From: Cristatella mucedo
Lineage: Eukaryota; Bryozoa; Phylactolaemata; Cristatellidae
Direction of reading: 5' to 3'
Assembly: GCA_009760855.2 (NCBI GenBank)
Contig: WPIO01000014.1
Location: 3,026,001-3,090,000, forward strand
Length of the DNA stretch: 64,000 bases
A program made the translations under genes and the position numbers. The number at the start of each line of letters is the position of its first letter. Within the stretch, counting starts at the first letter, position 1. The notes under the pieces were generated by a model, which ran no database searches, was not told the DNA's origin, and saw only the letters and a program-made list of their open reading frames with translations. Shown here in pieces: positions 37,105 to 63,206 of this stretch.

Positions 37105-37870
37105 TTCTGTGGTTAAAGGGGTCGTCCCCAAGTCCTTCAAATCGGCAATCGTTAGACCCATACTTGAAAAACCTGGATTAGATACAGAGGTCCTTGCTAA
37201 CCATCGCCCAGTTTCCCTTCCTTTCTTGTCAAAGATTCTTGAAAAAATTGTTGCTAAGCAGCTGGTTGAACATATTTAAAAGAATGAAATGTCAGAAATA
37301 TTTCAATCAGGGTTCAAGAGGCTGCACTCCACGAAAACTGCTCTCCATGTTGACAATGACATTCTACGTGGCAACGATAACGGAAATGTCCCTGCCCTAG
37401 ATCTGCCAGTTGCCTTCGATACCATTATTCACGGATTTTCTACTTAAACGATTGAGAAAAACGATCGAAATCGCAGACGAGGCACACTGGCATGGTTTAA
37501 ATCGTACTTGTCTGATCGTGTTCAATCCGTGCCGTGTGAAGGTCAGGTCTCACACACGAAACGGGTCACCTGTGGAGTCCCTCAGGGGTCCATCCTCGGT
37601 CCCTTGTTGTTCTCTATTTATACTCAACCTCTAGGAAAAGTGATTAAGGACAATGAAATAGGATATCACTTTTATGCTCTGTATTTGTCATTCAAACCGT
37701 CGGAATGTGCTGCAGCAACTGAGAAACTGAATGCTTTCCTTGCTAATATTTGATCATGGATGTCGGAAAACTTCTTTAAACTAAATGACGATAAAACAGA
37801 ACTGCTTCTCATAGGACACCCGAAGCGTGTGGCTGGATTAAAAGACGTGGCTCTTCTGTAGCCGAGTTCC
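37105..37870 (+). mobile_element. LINE family A, reverse transcriptase domain, broken
   Basis: In several frames one reads [62 protein letters not shown], then NFFKLNDDKTELLLIGHPKR. These are RT motifs of the CR1/L2 type. The catalytic YADD box reads YALY, and stops and frameshifts interrupt it (for example at 37278 and 37752). The HPKRVAGLK end joins family A copies elsewhere. Confidence 0.85.
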
Positions 37871-41318: not shown

Positions 41319-42459
41319 GTCGGCATCACACGCTAAGCCCTAATCAAGTTAAAAACCTGCCAATTGATATTGCACCCGGTTTGAAAAACTGCATGAAGCT
41401 TATGCATTGTTGGTTGAGCTTAAGTGGCTCCAAAATCTTTTTCATTGCTATTTCTGGAAAAATCCGCCCCCTTACTTATGTGTTCGACGCTTACCCGTTA
41501 CAAATTTGATCCATATCATAGAAAATATGATCGGTATATGCTACGTGCGTTGTTGACTATCTGAAGGTTACCAAAAAAGCGTGTCTGAATGAGCCTGTAG
41601 AAATGACCAGATTGCTGCGACGAGGTTCCATTTGACTTGCTCGAGAAGTACTGCTCTGATATGAAGCCACTGTTGGGATCATTTCGGCGAATATGCAAGA
41701 GGGCGAAGGCCGCAATGCAGAGATAGGTGCGGCCAACAGAGTGTCCAACGTGATTACAATTCTGGTTACTCACCTTAAATAAACTAGATGATTGTCGAAC
41801 CTTTATCACTTGTTTAAGGCCTTCTGATGACTTCCCAAAATTTAAATGTCTCAGGCTTAGGGGTGTCGGTGCAGCTCGCCTATGCTTCCATTCACCTGTT
41901 GTGACGTTCACCGTGTACTAAAAGTAAAAGAAACTGAAATCATGTTTTGGAAAAAGTGTATTACTTCAACTCAGTATTATATCAACATGTGCTTCCATAT
42001 TTTTTGAGGACTGTTTCTGAAATCAAAAAATATCTTATTCCTTCTCTGACCAAAGACTTAGTTAACGAGATTCGTTGACAACTGCAAATTAGTTCGAAGA
42101 GCAGGAAGCTTTGTCGACGAAAAGTCAATGACTCGTACCTGTGGCAGCAGGCGTCAACCGTGCTGGGCAATCGTGGTCACAGCTTCCAGAATGAACTGAA
42201 ACTCCAGCTCGGTAATGAAGCAGGCAAAGCTGAGCCTCACAAATCCTGGCCTACAAGATGACAGACACCCAGTCTGAGAGTCCTGCCTTGCATCTCGCAT
42301 CGACGATATGCTGAGAGCGAGTGTGGTTGCCCCACATGACAAGCAAACGGAGTGAACTAGGGTTCAGTGATAAATGCGTACCTCATTACATTCATAGCCG
42401 GCAATTAACCCTCGAAATCTTCACCAATACACCTGCAAATACGAAAACCCAAATATCTC

Positions 42460-42523: not shown

Positions 42524-43154
42524 AGACACTGCATGTGTGCTGAAAGGAAGCACGATCATATGGTTAGCAATTGTTTGCGAAATGTCAAGGATAACATGGA
42601 TAGAGGCGACATGCACAGGATCAGCCTGCAAAGGTGGTTAGTGGCAGCATGCAGTCATGCAGTGTCATCATGCATTAGCACAGAAAAAAAATCACAGGGA
42701 CCCACTAAATGTTGTGACAAATCGGTGCATTTTTAGTTTTTCTGTAAATGTCAAGTCGGGGAATGTCGTGACATCAGTTGAAAGTGAGTTCCGGGCTTTT
42801 CGGAGCATACAAACTAAAGGCATGGTCTGTACAGGATTTAAGGTTCGTAAGAGGTATGGCTTAGAGGTTTGATTCAGAAAAGCTGGCGGTACGTCAATAC
42901 GCTGCTTGATTGGAACCCAGTGAAGTCCACAAGAAATGGTGCGATGTGGCAGCTGCGAGGCTCGCGGCAGACAAGCCTATCTGCCGATTTTTGCACCAAC
43001 TGTAAGCGCCTGATTGCACATGCTGGTAGAACAGCAAGTAGTGAGTTGCAGAAATCGAGACGGTATGTTACAAATGCATGGATCAATTTTTCGTAGTATC
43101 CTTGCCTAAGAAAACCCGAATTTAAGCAATGTTGCGTTGCTGAAAGTAGGCATA

Positions 43155-43217
43155 CTTGACTGTGGAGCTGAAGTGATCTTCTAGTCACGAGAGGATCACT
43201 TCAGCTCCACAGTCAAG
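43155..43217. repeat. Perfect 24-bp inverted repeat at the hAT insertion edge
   Basis: Arms 43155-43178 and 43194-43217 are exact reverse complements around a 15-bp spacer that includes the left 8-bp target duplication. The left arm is original LINE sequence; the right arm is an extra inverted copy placed between the duplication and the transposon terminus. Confidence 0.95.
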
Positions 43218-43218
43218 T

Positions 43219-43404
43219 CTGTGGTTCTCAACCTTCCTAATGCCGCTATCTTTTAATACAGTTCCCCATGTTGTGGCGACCCCTTACCATAAAATTATTG
43301 TATGAAAAATGTGGAAATGCGTGTTTTCCTATGGTTTAGGCGACCCCTACGAAAGGGTCGTTCGTCCCCTAAAGGGGTCGCGACCCACAGATTGAGAACT
43401 GCAG
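43219..43404 (-). mobile_element. SPIN-like hAT MITE (short non-autonomous DNA transposon)
   Basis: The left end reads CTGTGGTTCTCAACCTTCCT and the right end, read inward, CTGCAGTTCTCAATCTGTGG followed by GTCGCGACCCC. The interior has GTGTTTTCCTATGG, GGCGACCCC, GAAAGGGTCGTTCG and ACCATAAAATTATT. These are the hallmark sequences of SPIN (Space Invaders) hAT elements as I remember them. An 8-bp duplication TTCTAGTC/TTCTAGTG lies at 43179-43186 and 43405-43412, the expected hAT length. The surrounding LINE reading frame becomes continuous across one copy of this site, which confirms the insertion. At about 186 bp it is internally deleted relative to standard SPIN MITEs and encodes no protein. 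Confidence 0.88.
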
Positions 43405-43989
43405 TTCTAGTGCAAGGTCACTTTGATATAATAGGTGTCGTGTTGCACATAGATTTCGTGCAGATGCAGCAGGAGATGTGCTGACACAGTCAATTTTGAA
43501 CGTTAAGATTTCTAAATTCGGAGTTACGCTTGGTTTTCCCATAATTAATCAGTTGGTTTTGTCGTCATTTAATTTGAGAAAATTTGCTGCCATCCATGTG
43601 CGGATTGCCATACATGTAACCAGGGTGCATAGAGAATTCGACGTGCTTGAGGGCTGGGAGTGATCAAAGCGAAGGTACAACTTAATGTCATCTGCGTACA
43701 AGTAACAGCCTAGATTATGCTTGGAAATTACACCGGCAAGAGGGCGAGTATACAGTGTGAAGAGAAACAGACCGAGCACGGCGCCCTGATGTACCCCATA
43801 CTACAGTGATTACTCAACGACCTTATTCTGTTATATCAATACTTTGACGCCTCTCTTTGAGATGGGACTTAAGCCATTGTAGTGCAGCGCCAGTGTTGCC
43901 CAGGGGAGATGAAAGGCGCTCGTGAAGGACTTGCAATCGATAGTATCGCACGCTGCCGAAAGATCAAGCAAAGCAGACAGTAAAGTCCG

Positions 43990-44150
43990 TCAAAATCGGC
44001 TTGGGGTTGAGAAGTTTCACAGTTTTGACAAGAGTTTTAAAATATTTTAAATAGATTAACGTGTCAATATATATGTATCAGTTTCGTGAGCTCTAATGCT
44101 GAAGCCGCTTATTGTGATAGCGAAGCTGTAACGCAAGTAAACTTCTAAAC
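43990..44150 (-). repeat. Outer block of the inverted duplication (matches 51195-51355)
   Basis: The reverse complement of this block aligns with the + strand intron sequence at about 51195-51355 of the aminotransferase gene. Shared stretches include CTTCGCTAT(T/C)ACAATAAG and CTCAACCCCAAGCC. Identity is lower than in the 39.7-42.45 kb block. A LINE copy (42530-43985) fills the space between the two blocks, and the exons at 51541-51955 have no counterpart here. Confidence 0.7.
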
Positions 44151-48300: not shown

Positions 48301-51300
48301 AAGCTGAGCATGGTATCTCGATGCAGGTTGTTAGGATAAATGAAGCGAGCAGCGGCTACCTTGACATGGAAGACCTCGAAAAGAAGCTCAAGGTGTTGTA
48401 TGCAGCACGGCTATAGTAGCTGTCAACTTACAGCCGCCGTTGCCCACCACGATACCTAATCTTTTGTTTGCATGCCAACGCCCTAATATGCTTCAGGACT
48501 ACGAAAACAGTGGGAAAAGACTTATGGCCTCATTCAATGCAGCCAGTAACATCACCGGTATAGTAACTGATACTGTCGCTGTGGCCGAATTACTTCATAA
48601 ATATGGCGTCTACTCATTTTGGGACTTCGCCACAGCTGCTCCTTACCTCGACATTGACATGAATGCCACGCCGACGGGGTACGTAGTCCCTAGGCGATGA
48701 AGACCATGAACGTACACACAATGCTCCGTATCGCCATCTGCCCGGGTGGGGGTAGGGTGCTCTCACAAAGATGGCGGCTACGGTTGGCCGCCCTAGCTCG
48801 GTCGGGTTATGAAATATGCTGTTACTTGCGTTTCAAGTACCATAACGCGGGTCAAATGAGAGGTTGCTGTTAAGCATGAAAAGCGTTGTGCAGGTTGAAA
48901 TGCACTCTCTGACGGCCGACGAAAAATGCAGCTTACTCATCTTTTAGGTACAAAGATGCTGTTTTCTGCTCACCTCATAAATTTATTGGTGGCCCTGGAA
49001 CTCCTGGTAAGTCGTTTCGACATGCTAAAAAATTTCAGGTCTGCATTTCCATTGTCAAAGCTGTCGGCAGTCAGCGTTCGTGAGTCGGAAGCCTTCGGTG
49101 CAATTAAAGGAGGGGGCGGTTTCGCGTTTTGATTGGATACCATGATGAGCGAGGTGTAGCGGCTCCTGTGCTAACGTCATTGGCCCTAAGCATATCGCTC
49201 GAGGCTGCGCCAGTCCTTACCGGTGCACGGAAAATAGCTGCGAAGCCCGGAGCCTCGGAGCGGGGCTAGCGACCTGGTCGGTGCTCTGCACCAATGCACA
49301 TGCAGATACGCCGACACAATGACGGAACACGGCAGCGCGGAAGAGCGCCCGTACATCAAAATAAGATGTCCACGTCCATTTTTTTCAACAGCGATGGAGG
49401 CTTAGTGCACCGGCCTTAGCATACTGCAGTTATCTCACGCGGTGCATAGGGCACGACTGAACTGCCAGCGAACGGCGCTAAGCCTTGGGCATAACTCCTC
49501 CCGACACGAATGCTATGGCAGTCTCTAGCCGAGTTCTAGCTGCATGCGTCCTGGACATGGACTATGGCATAACCGGCTCCTATTCATCATAATTTAAGAA
49601 CCGCGAATACAAATTGTTGGAAGTCATAATAATCCGGCATATTATACGCCACCATTTCAAGACAGAGAACGTATAGCCTTATGTCCCGCTGTTTTCCTTG
49701 GAGAGTGATAGGGCTGGTGTGTGCGATACCCTGCATACAGTTACGGAATGCTTGTTCAGCCCTTTACTTTAGACTTGCTTTAACGTGACTTTAAATAAAT
49801 GCACGGCGGCCCGCCAGTGTCTGGTCACATGTGCTTCCCTTAATTCTCTTTTATTAATCCAGGTGTACTGATTGCAAAGAAGCACTTGTTTCAAAACAAA
49901 GTTCCCGTTGGTGCAGGCGGCGGCACGGTGCTCTACGTAAGTCGAATTTAGGTTGTCAAGCATTTGAATTTTGCGTGAGCATAAAGCGTCGCAGGAGTCA
50001 TGTATGTAGCATTTTATTTATATTTAATTTAATTGTTGAATTTATATATGATGAGGTATTATTCGAACGCTGACGTTTTCGGTACTAACCGAGGGATGCC
50101 TTGAGAACAGTTAATAGAAAAAGAGGCTACATAACAGTGCGACCTAAATTCCGGCTAGGATGCTGTGCATATTTTCGAGAAAACAAAATTCAATCTGAAT
50201 AGAGTACTAGAAGAGTTTACTATATTTCTAGGCACTTTATTTACACTATAAAAGAGGCGTGTTGGTGAATAAGCAGAAACATATTTTGCCGGAAATTGCA
50301 GCTGCAAGTGCAGACAGTAGCCTTCGTTAAACTATACTCAACTGAAAGATGTTCTTTTTCTCAAACATAGCGATAGCTTACTTCATATTTTGATCTTGTA
50401 TTCAAATTTGTGTACACATGGCCTTTATCCGAAAACAGGGGCGTGAGAGCATCACAAATGCAGAAAAAGTTATACGAGAGCCGCACAAATGCATCTCGAG
50501 CTGCCGCTTGCAAAGCTTTAACAGTGAAGAGAGAGAGAGAGCGATGCAGCAGCAACAAGCCTTTTAGTTTAGATAGGCATAGTTAAGAGTTTAATAGGTT
50601 TAGAGAAGCATCGATATATGTATATATGATCTAAATATGCATACATTTTTACTTCCACCAAGTACTTAAAAGCAGTTGGCATATTGAATTAATTCAATTG
50701 CCAACGAAAGCCTCGTCCTGATGTTTCGATGATTGGCAGCCGTCTATAATAGACCTTATAACCGAGTGGGTCAACTTAGTCCGTATCTGCCTAACGGTCT
50801 GGGAGAAAAATGGCAGCCTCAAAGTATTCTTCACTGTTCTTTCCTTTCCTTTTACCAAAGGCTCACAACGATATGATGATGAATTGTAATTATGTTACGT
50901 TTATGAGCTATTTCAACGTTTGCCGCTATAACAAGCATACGGTAGCAATGGCATTTCGGAGTGTTCGTGAACCAGCCGTAGCTGTCTGTCTGTTAGATGC
51001 TTGGTTGCAGACTTAGCCCACTTTTCTAGGTTATAAGTGACAGGCACAAGTATCTGGAAGATATTGAGGCCCGCGAGGAAGGGGGAACTCCGGCCATAAT
51101 AGAATCAATCCGGGCTGGAATGGTTTTCCAGTTAAAAGAGGTAAGTGTGACGGCTATGCAGCTGACTACTGTACATCGGATTATGACACCTCGTTTAATT
51201 TTCGGGACTTTACTTGCATTATTGCTTCGCTATTACAATAAGTGGCTTCAGCACTAGAGCCCACGAGAATTATAACTAAACACCGGCAAGTTTATCAATT

Positions 51301-54028
51301 AAAAAAATTTGAAACTGTTGTCAAAACTGCTAAAATTCTCAACCCCAAGCCTTTCTATCGGCATCATTCGATTCAAGTTATTCTCGAGCACGAACAAGGT
51401 GCCTAGAAAGAGATTACGTTCTCTGAGAGAACTATGCAATGAAGCATTATAATTCCTGTTTCAGCTCGTTCTGCATTTTTATATTTATACTATGTAATAA
51501 TTACTATTTTAAGTTATTATTTTATTTTTTCCGTTAACAGAGTATAGGCCAGCACCGCATTGAGAACAGAGAGGAGCTTTTGTATCGTAGGGCCAGAAAA
51601 GAATGGCTCAAAGTCAAGAATATGATTATTCTTGGAAGGGGCTCGGTCAAGCGATTGCCGATCTTTTCTTTTCTCATATGGAACCCGGAAACTAAGAAGT
51701 TTCTGCATCACAACTTCGTTTCTTCCGTGCTAAATGACCTATTTGGTATACAGACTCGAGGCGGCTGTGCATGCGCTGGACCCTATGCCGAGGTTTGTAT
51801 GTACATTCCTGCTGCTCATGGACGCTGCCTTCAGCAGGTGAACTCGCATTTAACGACCTGATTGTTGCCCTAATTATTCAGTGCTTACTGGGAATCAACG
51901 GCGGTGACTACGTCGCATTTCTAGAAAATTCTTCGGCAGTGGGCAGCTGCAGCCGGTAGGAAATTCTTTGTACCAGATAATTCCTGCACTTATTTGATAC
52001 CCAGTCTTTAAAAAGTACCAGCATTACCTACAAGGATTTGGGTTTTCGTACTTCCAGGTGTATTGGTGAAGATTGTTCTGAGGAATTCCCGGCAATAGAA
52101 GTAATGAAGTACGTATTTATCACTGACCCCTAGTTCACTTCACAGTTTGCTTGTCATCCTTATACCACTATTTTATGCACGTGGGGCAACCACACTCGCT
52201 CTCAGCATATCGTCGATGCGAGGTGCAAGGCAGGACTCTCAGACTGGGCGTTTGTCGTCTTGTAGGCCAGGATTTGTGAGGCTCAGCTTTGCCTATTTCA
52301 TTACCGAGCCGGAGTTTCAGTTCATTCTGGAAGCTGTGACCATGGTTGCCCAGCACGGTTGGCGCCTGCTGCCACAGGTACGAGTCATTGACTTTTCGTC
52401 GACAGAAGCTTCCTGCTCTTTGAACTAATTTGGAGTTGTCAATGAATCTCGTTAACTAAGTCTTTGGTCAGAGAAGGAATAAGATATTTTTTGATTTCAG
52501 AAAAAGTCCTCAGAAAATGTGGAAGCACATGTTTATATAATTGAGTTGAAGTAATACCCTTTTCCAAAAGATGATTTCAGTTTCTTTTACTTTTAGTACA
52601 CGGTGAACGTCACAACAGGTGAATGGAAGCATAGGCGAGCTGCACCGACACCCCTAAGCCTGAGACATTTAAATTTTGGGAAGTCATCAGAAGGCCTTAA
52701 ACAAGTGATAAAGGTTCGACAATCATCTAGTTTATTTAAGGTGAGTAACCAGAATTGTAATCACGTTGGACACTCTGTTGGCCGCACCTATCTCTGCATT
52801 GCGGCCTTCGCCCTCTTGCATATTCGCCGAAATGATCCCAACAGTGGCTTCATATCAGAGCAGTACTTCTCGAGCAAGTCAAATGGAACCTCGTCGCAGC
52901 AATCTGTTCATATCTACAGGCTCATTCATGCACACTGTTTTGGTAACCTTCAGATAGTCAACAACGGGCGTAGCAAATATCGATCATATTTTCAACATTT
53001 GGGTCAATTTTGTAACGTGTAAACGTCGAACCCATAAGTGAGGAAGCGGATTTCGCTAATAATGGCAATCAAGAAAACTTTGTAGCTTAAGCTCAACCAA
53101 CAATATACTGTTTTTCAAACCGGGTGCAATATATATTCGTGGTTTCTTTTACTTGATTAGGGCTTAGCGTGTGATGCTGACATTAAATGCTCGAGCAAAT
53201 TTTATTCCCACAGTGCTAGCTGGTAAATTCGCTTTGTACTTCTCCAACAAGAACTGTAATTAGATTTAAACACGAGATTTCTTAGTTAATATTTTTCATC
53301 TTTCAAACTACGGTGCCCTTCCTGCTCAAAGATAAATGCATTATAGGGAGGCAAGTCGTGGATGAGCCTCTTTGTACACAGCGAAGCTGTAGTCTTTTAT
53401 CAATCACTTGAATTTTGCTGGTGGCTGTCACATTTCGCGAGTTCGCATGCAAAATCTTGCGGAAAAACCAGCACTTGATAGCACTGCTAAAAGCATTGAC
53501 GGTTGTTATAGTTCCAGATATTTAGGATTTCGATGCCATTTTGCGGTCGACTCCAATGTGATTCAAAAGCATTCAAACCTACTTCAATAATGCTCTTTTC
53601 TCGTTGCTCATTTTCGTAGAAAGTCCTCAAGGAAGCAGGCAAGATTTTGTCGGTGGCCGATATTTTCGCAGCGGTGAGTGAGTGCAAGCAATGTCCCTGT
53701 AAGAGTCGTCGTCAGACGCCTGTCAGATTCCGCCAATATGCTTCAGCATGCGATGAAAGTACTTCCTTTTTTTAAGAACGTCAACTTTGAAAGAGACGAA
53801 ACTATGCGGGATCTGGTTGAGCAGGGAAAAGAGAGCTACGTGTGGTTCTTGGAGCCTCGCGATGCAGCGATACACGTCATCTCCACTCCAGCAAGCGCCG
53901 AGGACAGCGACCGGAAGAGATCGCGATTCTCCTTTATATCCAAGAAATCACCTGTGAAGATTTCCACGCGGTATTTTAGGCCTACAAAAATGAGCAAAAG
54001 TAGCATACTATCGCCTAAACAAAATTGA
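45362..54028 (+). CDS. Class V PLP-dependent aminotransferase / cysteine-desulfurase-like protein (copy 1, apparently intact)
   Basis: Exons: 45634-45850, 47306-47336, 47453-47569, 47885-48014, 48128-48193, 48327-48392, 48497-48678, 48948-49006, 49863-49936, 51030-51140, 51541-51792, 51882-51955, 52266-52377, 52597-52740, 53620-53673, 53747-54028. The sum is 1971 nt, fully in phase (656 aa plus stop). A start exon at 45362-45391 (ATG, donor GAG|GTGAGA) fits phase 0 but is tentative. Class V fold-type-I features: DYIASGR, FYANTHTTT, phosphate-binding VGSGSTAAVNKL, FEHHSNLLPW, the WDFATAAPY aspartate, and SPHKFIGGPGTPG with the expected PLP-binding lysine. RGGCACAGPYA has a cysteine placed like the SufS/CsdA active-site cysteine. 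A C-terminal region of about 160 aa (TTGEWKHR, WFLEPRDAA) lies beyond the fold. The substrate is unknown; cysteine desulfuration is an inference from the motif. A polyadenylation signal AATAAA lies at 54268-54273. Confidence 0.85.
46130..47030. repeat. GGCNGTAGATCTACAGGAG-type minisatellite split by a LINE
   Basis: Units such as GGCTGTAGATCTACAGGAAC and GGCAGTATATCTGCTGGAGA repeat at 46130-46262 with a period near 40 bp. Related units (GGCTGTAAATATTCTGGGCG) resume at 46966-47030 beyond the LINE. Confidence 0.75.
46268..46960 (-). mobile_element. LINE family B 3' part in aminotransferase intron 1
   Basis: Plus-strand edge TAATAATAATAATACG followed by AGGGAACTCAATCTCTTTCT is the reversed LINE tail. 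The minus strand gives LTFRTLHSLAPAYLSDL and CALRRLQLIKSL-like residues with frameshifts. It is inserted in a local minisatellite (46130-47030). Confidence 0.82.
47306..47336 (+). other. 31-nt microexon of the class V aminotransferase
   Basis: The exon lies between acceptor TGTACTTGTAG and donor AAG|GTAAGG. It begins in phase 1 and ends in phase 2, and encodes only the (V)LYCDYIASG(R) motif, which corresponds to the YADxTASGR signature of the family. Skipping it would shift the frame (31 is not a multiple of three), so it must be included for a full product. The call rests on phase, on splice sites on both sides and on the family motif. Confidence 0.85.
47645..47856. repeat. Purine-only GGGAGA-type minisatellite in an aminotransferase intron
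   Basis: About 210 bp of G and A only (apart from two T near 47679), ending in repeated GGAGGGAGAG units. It fills most of the 315-bp intron 47570-47884. The long homopurine tract could form triplex or G-rich structures. Confidence 0.95.
49140..49500. repeat. GC-rich dispersed repeat in aminotransferase intron 8 (relative at about 56990-57210)
   Basis: CACATGCAGATACGCCGACA, CCATTTTTTTCAACAGCGAT and GGCACGACTGAACTGCC match in order ACATGCAGGTTCGCCGACG, AATTCGTTCGACAGCGACGG and AGCACCACTGAACTGGCG near 57020-57200. Both are diverged copies of an unnamed element. Confidence 0.5.
49937..51029. other. Aminotransferase intron 9
   Basis: It is a 1.1-kb AT-rich intron with no recognised exon or element. 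Confidence 0.6.
51395..51440 (+). mobile_element. LINE family B tail remnant in aminotransferase intron 10
   Basis: GGTGCCTAGAAAGAGATTAC and GTTCTCTGAGAGAACTATGC are all that is left. The longer LINE copy at 42530-43985 occupies the corresponding place in the inverted duplicate. Confidence 0.65.
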
Positions 54029-60834: not shown

Positions 60835-63206
60835 CTATTTCTGAGTGTGTCTGGGTTTCAGCGTGTATGTGCTGCTTCTGCTCATTACTCGTGGCCTAAA
60901 AGAATGCATAGACCTGTTCAGCGTGGATGTCTTCGAACTAAGAGAGTAAGCCGACTTCGACCTCTTCGCAATAGCAGAGCTGACAGCGGAGCTCTCTAAA
61001 ATTACATGCAGCGCCGCCTCGCGGGGCTCCAAGAACCAGATGTGGTCCTCTTTACCTTGCTCCACCAGGCACTGCAGGTTGTCATCGTATTCGAAGTTAA
61101 AATTCTTCATAAAAGAGAAGCGTAAATGCGACTTTGCATGCGCGTCCATGGAGTGCAGCTGGCGCTAAGTGGCTCCAAGCGGCTCCTAGCGGCAAAGCGT
61201 TAGTGGTCAAGCGAGCTAAAAGTACACGCCGACACTCACCATCGCACAGGAGCCGGCCGCAGCTAGCACCTTGCCAGCTTCCTTCAGAATTCGCTAGAAA
61301 AAAAACAATGGAAGTGAATCTCAACGGAAACTACACGGATTTTGCTTTCACTGTGCAGCTGGAGCGAGGCTGCGCTTTACTCGTTTCGATTGGCTCTCGA
61401 AATTGGTGCGCATTCCTTGGCAATTCGGTCTCATAAAGCTCCAATTTAGTGATATGCCAAGCGAGGTGACCGGAATTGAGGATTTTTATTAGGGGCAAGA
61501 GCAGAAAAGCAAAAGAGAGAGAGAGATGCCTTTGCTTTGTCGCGAGTGAGAGAGAAGAGTAGTTTGGTGCAGCAGTGACGTACTTGCGGAGTTTTACCAA
61601 TAGTTGCTTTTAACAGCAGAAGGATCGGCATGTGAACTTGGTAGCTTACTTGCGGATGAAAATCTGCCTGCGGTTCCTACTGCACTCGCCTCATCGCGAG
61701 CGGCCGTGGCTTTTTTGCGGGCAAAGTCGGGAATTTCCGACAGTCGCCGAGCGGACTCGCTGCGCCACACCTCTGCTGGCATTATACACATTCATGCCAT
61801 CCAATAGTGAAACGCAGCGCTACTACCTATTGTTGCAGAGTTTTCTAGTGCAAACGAGGATTGTGATAGTACGGCTCACTCACTCAAGCGAATCGTCGAT
61901 TGATAGAGTTAGTAATCCCCGGCAATACATGCTGCACGCCCAGAGTCGTTGCATCATCAGTCTGAATTAAGCTTGCTCCCGATTCCCAGAAACGCATAAA
62001 ATGACGTATAATAACGACAAATGATATCTTAAATGAAATTGCAGGAAAGATTAAAATCTTAAATTTTTTGTGGCCATTGTTCAAAGAGGATCTACGAAAT
62101 TGAATACGTTTACTAGCCAGGTAAGATATCTGAATAGAGATAAACGTTAGTCTATTTTAGCTGCCCCAAACACTTAACAACACAAACAACAAAAAACACT
62201 TAACAACTGAAATACTTTGCCATCTATACAGGCAATAATACCATCACAAGTGCGCTTCGTAATTGCACGATTTACAAGCGACTCTAAATTATTTGAATGA
62301 CAAGAGCCGTGGCTGTTCCGCTAGTGTTCTTATAATTTAAGTTGACATTCGTATTTTGGCTTGCATTTTGTTTCCTGCCAGCCTTATTTGAATATTGTGT
62401 ACACGAGCACTGTGTCGCCATATGCTCAGACTGCTCAGCGCTCAGCTCACATGCTTGCTCGGAGCTCACCTCAAAAACTTTCGACGTATTTTTTACTTTC
62501 TTCACTTGCTTGAGGTCTTTCGCCAATTCAAGTCCATTCTTGCCAAATGATATTTCCATTAGGCTTTGGGGCTGCGGTATGGCTTTCCTGTGCTTCCATT
62601 CGCCCGTCGTGATGTTCACGGTGTACTAAAAGAACATCAATCAGTCTTGCCCAATCTTGCCTAATCCTGAAATAACTCCTAATCGATATGAGCGCACGCG
62701 AGCGTCCTCGAAATTAGCTTGCGCTTCTTTCAGCAGAATCGCTCAAATTCAGCCGTGTCGCTCCCGTGAGATCGGGACGATGGCGGGCAGCTTACCGGGG
62801 GGGGGGGCGCTCGCTTAAAGACAGCTGACAGCCGACACTCATGGAACGTACCTGCGGCAGCAGGCGCCAGCCGTGCTTGGCAACCATGGCTACGGCTTGC
62901 AAAACGAACTGAAACTCCTGCTCAGTCATGAAGAACGGCAAGTTCAGCCTTACACAACCCGGCCTACAAAATGGCCAGCGAACTCTCGGACGCGAGACTC
63001 GCGCTCGAGAGCACGGCTCCTCTCCGGATATTCGCACCCTCGCTTCTCTCCAATTCCACCGGGCGCTTCGCAGAGCTGCAGGCTACGAGCGGGCCCGCAA
63101 CGCTCGTTTCGGCGTAGAGCACGACCGGCGAGTAAACAGAAGAGCAGCAGCAGCAGCTGGTGGAACGGACCGGACGTACTTCAGTACTTCCATGGCGGAA
63201 TGGCAG

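Follow-up and report, generated by a model that had tools for sequence, protein, structure and literature searches.

SPIN (SPACE INVADERS) elements are hAT transposons whose non-autonomous forms, SPIN_NA, include murine URR1, and they serve as a standard example of transposons that have moved between distantly related animals. A target duplication of the form nnnTAnnn is the mark of the Buster group. SPIN has been reported from the painted turtle (PMC4054807) and in Rhodnius prolixus (PMC11614815), and a SPIN-like hAT with ~1,000 copies was described in the snail Biomphalaria glabrata (PMC5440852). Each well-supported invertebrate SPIN host helps to trace the route of transfer.

The evidence for DNA hairpins of hAT elements comes from biochemical work and from empty sites after repair. 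The Hermes and Kat1 hAT transposases close the flanking DNA as hairpins (PMC4763223). Footprints of Ac/Ds carry palindromic P-nucleotide insertions that derive from hairpin resolution and have as their centre the complement of the transposon-bordering base; in the cases described there, the palindromes lie at sites vacated by the element and not beside a resident one (PMC5873905). A non-exhaustive literature search brought up no report of a hairpin scar next to a hAT element that is still in place.

The locus presented here lies in the bryozoan Cristatella mucedo, in a stretch of 64,000 nucleotides of contig WPIO01000014.1 (C55:3026001-3090000 of the assembly), referred to below as the window. 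It has in common with the Ac/Ds footprints (PMC5873905) an inverted repeat whose central base is the complement of the bordering one, and it differs from them in that the element is still resident, the arm is 32 nt long against a maximum of 20 nt (yeast) and only one end is affected. With Hermes and Kat1 (PMC4763223) it would share the hAT chemistry that places the hairpin on the flanking DNA; there, the hairpins are biochemical intermediates and not a genomic scar.

Identity and Extent of the Element

Alignment to a consensus built from 40 further copies in the genome delimited a non-autonomous hAT element (MITE) of 186 bp at 43219-43404, without assigned strand. The original prediction had taken the whole interval 43187-43412 as one SPIN-like hAT; its family assignment stood, and its extent had to be reduced to the element proper. 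The motifs that it quoted were all present, with GGGTCGCGACCCC on the minus strand, and the terminal inverted repeats (TIRs) that it reported were found at both ends as imperfect repeats. The left TIR is CTGTGGTTCTCAACCT (43219-43234, plus strand; family consensus CAGTGGTTCTCAACCT) and the right TIR, read on the minus strand, is CTGCAGTTCTCAATCT (43389-43404; family consensus CAGCGGTTCTCAACCT). The window copy differs from the host-genome consensus at 17/186 positions (9.1%), the mean divergence of the other 40 copies in the consensus alignment being 5.8%. Its ends read CTG...CAG and not CAG...CTG, the same A-to-T change being present at TIR position 2 of both ends (43219-43221 and 43402-43404).

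An 8-bp target site duplication had also been claimed, and its left copy had to be corrected. The right copy, TTCTAGTG (43405-43412, plus strand), is TA-centred as in the family and abuts the right end of the element. The proposed left copy, TTCTAGTC (43179-43186), lies 32 nt from the left TIR and only seven of its eight bases belong to the duplication: the sequence and the paralogous empty sites described below place the left copy at 43179-43185 (plus strand), where it reads TTCTAGT and the eighth base, G, is absent.

The reference used for family membership was a provisional 225-nt sequence, not drawn from a database record, which we take to be that of vertebrate SPIN/URR1; its letters were fixed before any genomic copy besides the window copy was known. 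The window copy agreed with it at 163/186 aligned columns (local score 209, against no more than 29 in 500 shuffles), so that the similarity spanned the whole element, beyond the terminal 15 bp, in line with the SPIN assignment first proposed. The agreement was 178/187 for the consensus of the 40 other copies, with 85/85 in the first end block and 80/81 in the last. The window copy departs from the consensus at 18 consensus positions, including one gap; there the provisional reference equalled the consensus 17 times and the window copy not once, which indicated that this reference had not been shaped by the window copy.

Two longer SPIN-ended siblings, intermediate between the MITE and a full element, were observed in the genome, L059 (1501-2623; 1,123 bp, the longest SPIN-ended copy seen) and L076 (1501-1982; 482 bp), each with its own TA-centred duplications. 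The internal SPIN block that is missing from the MITE was recovered in L076 at 52/54 aligned positions with a single gap of 3 nt (score against the provisional reference 89; shuffles, n=300, at most 24), and in L059 at 51/60 (score 66; shuffles at most 36).

Measured against the provisional reference, the window element almost certainly belongs to the SPIN family. The competing assignment, to another hAT family of the Charlie/Buster kind that has only the TIRs in common with SPIN, draws on the start CAGNGGTTCTCAA, which is common to other hAT families, and on the use of a provisional reference in place of a vertebrate SPIN record. This assignment is highly unlikely in view of the end-to-end agreement of the genome consensus (178/187), the internal block in L076 and the fact that the reference was fixed before any other copy from the C. 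mucedo genome was known.

With SPIN, including SPIN_NA and URR1, the element shares full-length similarity including the subterminal GGGTCGCGACCCC block, the TIR, the 8-bp duplication, the MITE form with an internal deletion and a high copy number. The deletion form is the host's own, with a consensus of 187 bp in C. mucedo against the 225 nt of the provisional vertebrate form. Further differences from SPIN are the invertebrate host and, in the window copy, the T that replaces A at the second TIR position of both ends. An invertebrate host is also the point in common with the B. glabrata and R. prolixus cases.

SPIN Copies Across the Host Genome

The search space was the 572-Mb assembly of 688 contigs. 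The right-end 15-mer GGTTGAGAACCGCTG had 540 exact occurrences, against 3 for the same pattern read backwards as a control. In a similarity search with the window element, in which the best 40 of 2,188 candidates were scored, the matches listed were the window copy and 39 others at 86–89% identity; one further match was that of the window's own left arm with its inverted copy.

Among the 100 places listed for the 15-mer, 94 were examined (30 loci, 62 places in 60 stretches and 2 others). At E 1e-8, 128/130 loci gave a hit, 134 hits altogether, from which 113 full-length copies were kept (111 distinct in sequence, the window copy included) and 21 partial hits were set aside. Only partial matches were obtained at 17 loci, and L110 was without a match even at E 1e-3.

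An adjacent 8-bp duplication matching at 7/8 or better flanked 76/111 copies. The TA centre (nnnTAnnn) was present in at least one duplication copy in all 76 and in both copies in 68/76. The window copy was among the 35/111 without an adjacent duplication at 7/8. The copies began with CAG in 87/111 cases and ended with CTG in 103/111, 72 of the 111 having been selected via an intact right-end 15-mer; in the remaining 39 (window copy included) the CTG end was found in 33 and the CAG start in 31. The mean identity to the consensus was 90.8% over the 111 copies, and 89.0% (73.9–96.3%) for the 72 copies picked by the intact right-end 15-mer and not by likeness to the window copy. The window copy itself is ordinary for this genome; its left junction is not. 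Two displaced duplications were observed elsewhere: in L039, a non-palindromic filler of 14 nt stands between the aligned right border and the right-hand 8-bp duplication, which is identical to the left one, and L098 shows a weaker case, with a 7/8 match at 38 nt.

The Interrupted LINE and Its Empty Site

The original prediction had placed the insertion inside the reading frame of a LINE, and a degraded LINE was indeed found around it, with SPIN in antisense orientation. The downstream part of the LINE fragment, with a RLQLVQKSADRLV-type tail, occupies 42877-43178 (minus strand), and the upstream part of the same fragment, the reverse transcriptase end with a YADD motif, degraded by stops, occupies 43405-43998 (minus strand). 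Both parts were named by eye; the interrupted sequence was identified as a LINE from the YADD motif and the tail and, again by eye, as CR1/Rex-like. The tail piece gave no Pfam match. Another LINE fragment in the window, at 37448-37750, matched RVT_1.

When the flanks were joined with a single TTCTAGTG, an uninterrupted LINE strand was obtained, reading ...LLYQSDLALEDHFSSTVKYAYFQQRNIA... and then running into stops. A search with this joined site, in which the best 40 of 7,068 candidates were scored, listed among its matches 39 other genomic LINE copies at 75–78% identity. All 39 matched across the junction, with an overall length too short for SPIN. Six LINE paralogs were aligned: the 33 nt that precede the left TIR in the window (43186-43218) were absent in 6/6, five being gapless at the junction and L149 having a single-base insertion there. 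SPIN and the 33 nt were thus both added to a normal LINE copy. It was the genomic LINE paralogs that decided on the empty site, the alignment to the LINE proteins of the window being indecisive.

A Palindrome at the Left Junction

The 33-nt insert (43186-43218, plus strand) opens with a C, which complements the missing G. Its other 32 nt (43187-43218) repeat, in inverted orientation, those at 43154-43185 (plus strand), a template arm made up of LINE flank and the 7 nt of the duplication. The two arms matched as inverted repeats at 30/32 positions around the single central base C43186. By parts, the flank stem matched at 25/25 and the duplication part next to the tip at 5/7. The insert ends exactly at the first TIR base.

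This palindrome is not a chance structure. No other centre in the 64-kb window (spacer 0 or 1) reached 24/32, and no other perfect 16-nt inverted pair with a spacer of up to 44 nt was found in the window outside the palindrome. Across the 222 SPIN ends of the 111 copies, the window's left end scored 26 and the next best 5, with 555 control positions at 7 or below; none of the other 221 ends showed a comparable palindrome. In a looser scan of 41 copies with longer spacers, the best score besides the 26 of the window was 8 (L015 and L041); in L015, the inverted pair measures 8 nt, has a spacer of 11 nt and lies two bases off its border. L013 and L015, whose left ends also read CTG, were considered as further hairpin scars and rejected, with palindrome scores of 0 and 0.

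As single-stranded DNA, the palindrome had a predicted fold of -32 kcal/mol, against -8.3 for shuffles, and if transcribed it would give a stem of ~30 bp. Sub-threshold Rfam matches, mostly to microRNA families and on both strands, were recorded at 43151-43221, all of them on the palindrome. A microRNA reading was dropped, because any perfect stem resembles a microRNA precursor.

Origin of the Palindrome

Our preferred account, to which we assign a probability of roughly 60%, is that of a SPIN MITE in a LINE that underwent an aborted one-ended excision followed by a distant opening of the hairpin. The MITE inserted into the antisense LINE and left TTCTAGTG (8 bp) duplicated. At a later time its left end, and no other, would have been cut by a SPIN transposase. 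By known hAT chemistry, the flank would be nicked one base outside the element, leaving TTCTAGT without its final G, and the 3' end of the flank would be joined to the opposite strand, giving a closed hairpin with C at its tip. The hairpin would then have been nicked ~33 nt from the tip rather than near it, unfolding to a long palindromic tail that would be rejoined to this element at the left end that the cut had set free. The product would be flank, TTCTAGT, C, inverted flank and TIR.

The observed junction follows this order closely. The rule for hAT elements predicts ...GATC-TTCTAGT-C-ACTAGAA-GATC..., and the window reads ...GATC-TTCTAGT-C-ACGAGAG-GATC.... The centre, 43186, is C, the complement of the G of TTCTAGTG that borders the element. 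Under the hairpin model, the one-base mismatch between the two duplications is explained, because the G would have left with the element and the C would have come from the opposite strand. Both changes were assigned to the inverted arm, because the left TTCTAGT still equals the right duplication. We read the 33 nt as probably a long P-nucleotide tract, the scar of an excision that began at one end and was aborted. With odds slightly better than even, 43186-43218 would be the genomic fossil of a hAT intermediate, a flank hairpin at a SPIN that never departed, opened ~33 nt away and resealed. With A changed to T at position 2 in both TIRs, the element may have remained open to cutting and yet unable to complete the jump.

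Several observations speak against a hairpin scar. Both differences in the palindrome fall within the 7 positions at the tip, the part for which the model makes its most specific prediction; the arm, at 32 nt, exceeds the yeast Ac/Ds footprint maximum of 20 nt given in PMC5873905; it is a single case in 222 ends; and no SPIN copy that encodes a transposase was identified. In addition, a footprint is left where the element has gone from the site and here SPIN is still resident; since it is still in place, the structure is described as scar-like and not as an ordinary footprint.

The same tip mismatches would be compatible with an imprecise switch point in a replication template switch at the left junction of an ordinary SPIN, by which the nascent strand would jump to the opposite strand, copy ~32 nt backwards and return. 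Inverted duplications of such a size are generally known to be yielded by template switching. This origin is possible but rather unlikely, since the switch would have to start no more than one base from the end of the duplication and to return exactly at the first TIR base; by our own arithmetic, the window has ~128,000 centres, of which ~10 are as near as that to a SPIN border (~8e-5). Nor does a template switch predict the loss of the last G and its replacement by C.

An inverted copy placed exactly between duplication and TIR would also result if the palindrome had been made during insertion, the 8-nt gap being filled and the new 3' end folding back, copying the flank and then being ligated. 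We consider this improbable: fold-back priming with a one-base loop is, on general knowledge, sterically unfavourable, the predicted single-strand fold of the palindrome has a 7-nt loop, and no like palindrome was present at the other 221 ends. Finally, an assembly or sequencing artefact from a fold-back read is extremely improbable, as the inverted arm carries two differences from the other (2/32 positions), and the insert, only 33 nt long and situated within a 7.25-Mb contig, stops precisely where the TIR starts.

If the aborted excision with distant hairpin opening is true, SPIN-group transposases hairpin the flank with the geometry of Ac and Hermes, one-ended cleavage occurred in the germ line and the host opened the hairpin far from its tip. 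From a scar at an element that stays in place, failed excision would be readable in the sequence alone. Screening for such scars would then be possible in any genome rich in SPIN, so that the rate of abortive excision and the hairpin-opening distance would become measurable.

Putative Transposase Source

The hAT dimerisation domain had at least 138 matches in the genome and DUF4371 at least 46. A transposase-encoding SPIN copy was not identified; two places with hAT domains were compared with SPIN and lacked SPIN ends. A young, uniform hAT family was observed outside the window: 55 of the 138 listed dimerisation-domain matches have the identical score of 76.8 bits, and two of its copies, L145 and L146, show 99.3% identity across 3,034 aligned bp and contain an open frame of 640 aa with a BED finger and a hAT dimerisation domain. 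This family was rejected as the SPIN source, as the two copies compared had no SPIN ends.

Possible Horizontal Transfer and Host Range

The host contains hundreds of SPIN copies, with consensus ends nearly identical to those of the provisional vertebrate reference: the two end blocks agreed at 165/166 positions. Taken against this reference, the match would be the kind of signal that is read as horizontal transfer, in this case no more than a possibility, as is the standing of C. mucedo as a new host that extends the range of SPIN.

Strict SPIN patterns were searched for in viral contigs and genome contigs and gave no match, and the same was true of a SPIN 19-mer. A looser 17-mer gave six loci, where the match did not exceed ~21 bp and was taken as chance. 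SPIN patterns had no match in plasmids. In eight related Rhizobium phage records, one 34-bp match (E 0.6) was likewise taken as chance.

Other Features of the Window and the Assembly

An aminotransferase class V domain lies in an exon-like frame of the window at 48365-48697. Frames resembling this one by eye lie at 41519-41917, 52597-53019 and 62287-62625, and this recurrence suggests tandem gene copies.

Additionally, a mitochondrial contig, C688 (L053 and L054; 21,008 bp, of which 20,000 were read), showed strongly rearranged genes. The strand of COX1 carries COX3-ATP6-COX1-ND3-ND1-ND6-CYTB-ND4L-ND4-ND5 and the opposite strand ND2, COX2 and 16S; ND1, ND4L and ND6 were assigned by eye, there being no Pfam match for ND6, and ND2 by a general domain. 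Taken by itself, the block from ND1 to ND5 would suggest a lophotrochozoan, perhaps a gastropod; a domain search for mollusc haemocyanin gave no match, a negative that carries no weight. A unit of ~2.1 kb is repeated in tandem near 11–15 kb of this contig and occurs once, inverted, near 2.5–4 kb. COX1-like fragments were also present on other contigs besides C688.
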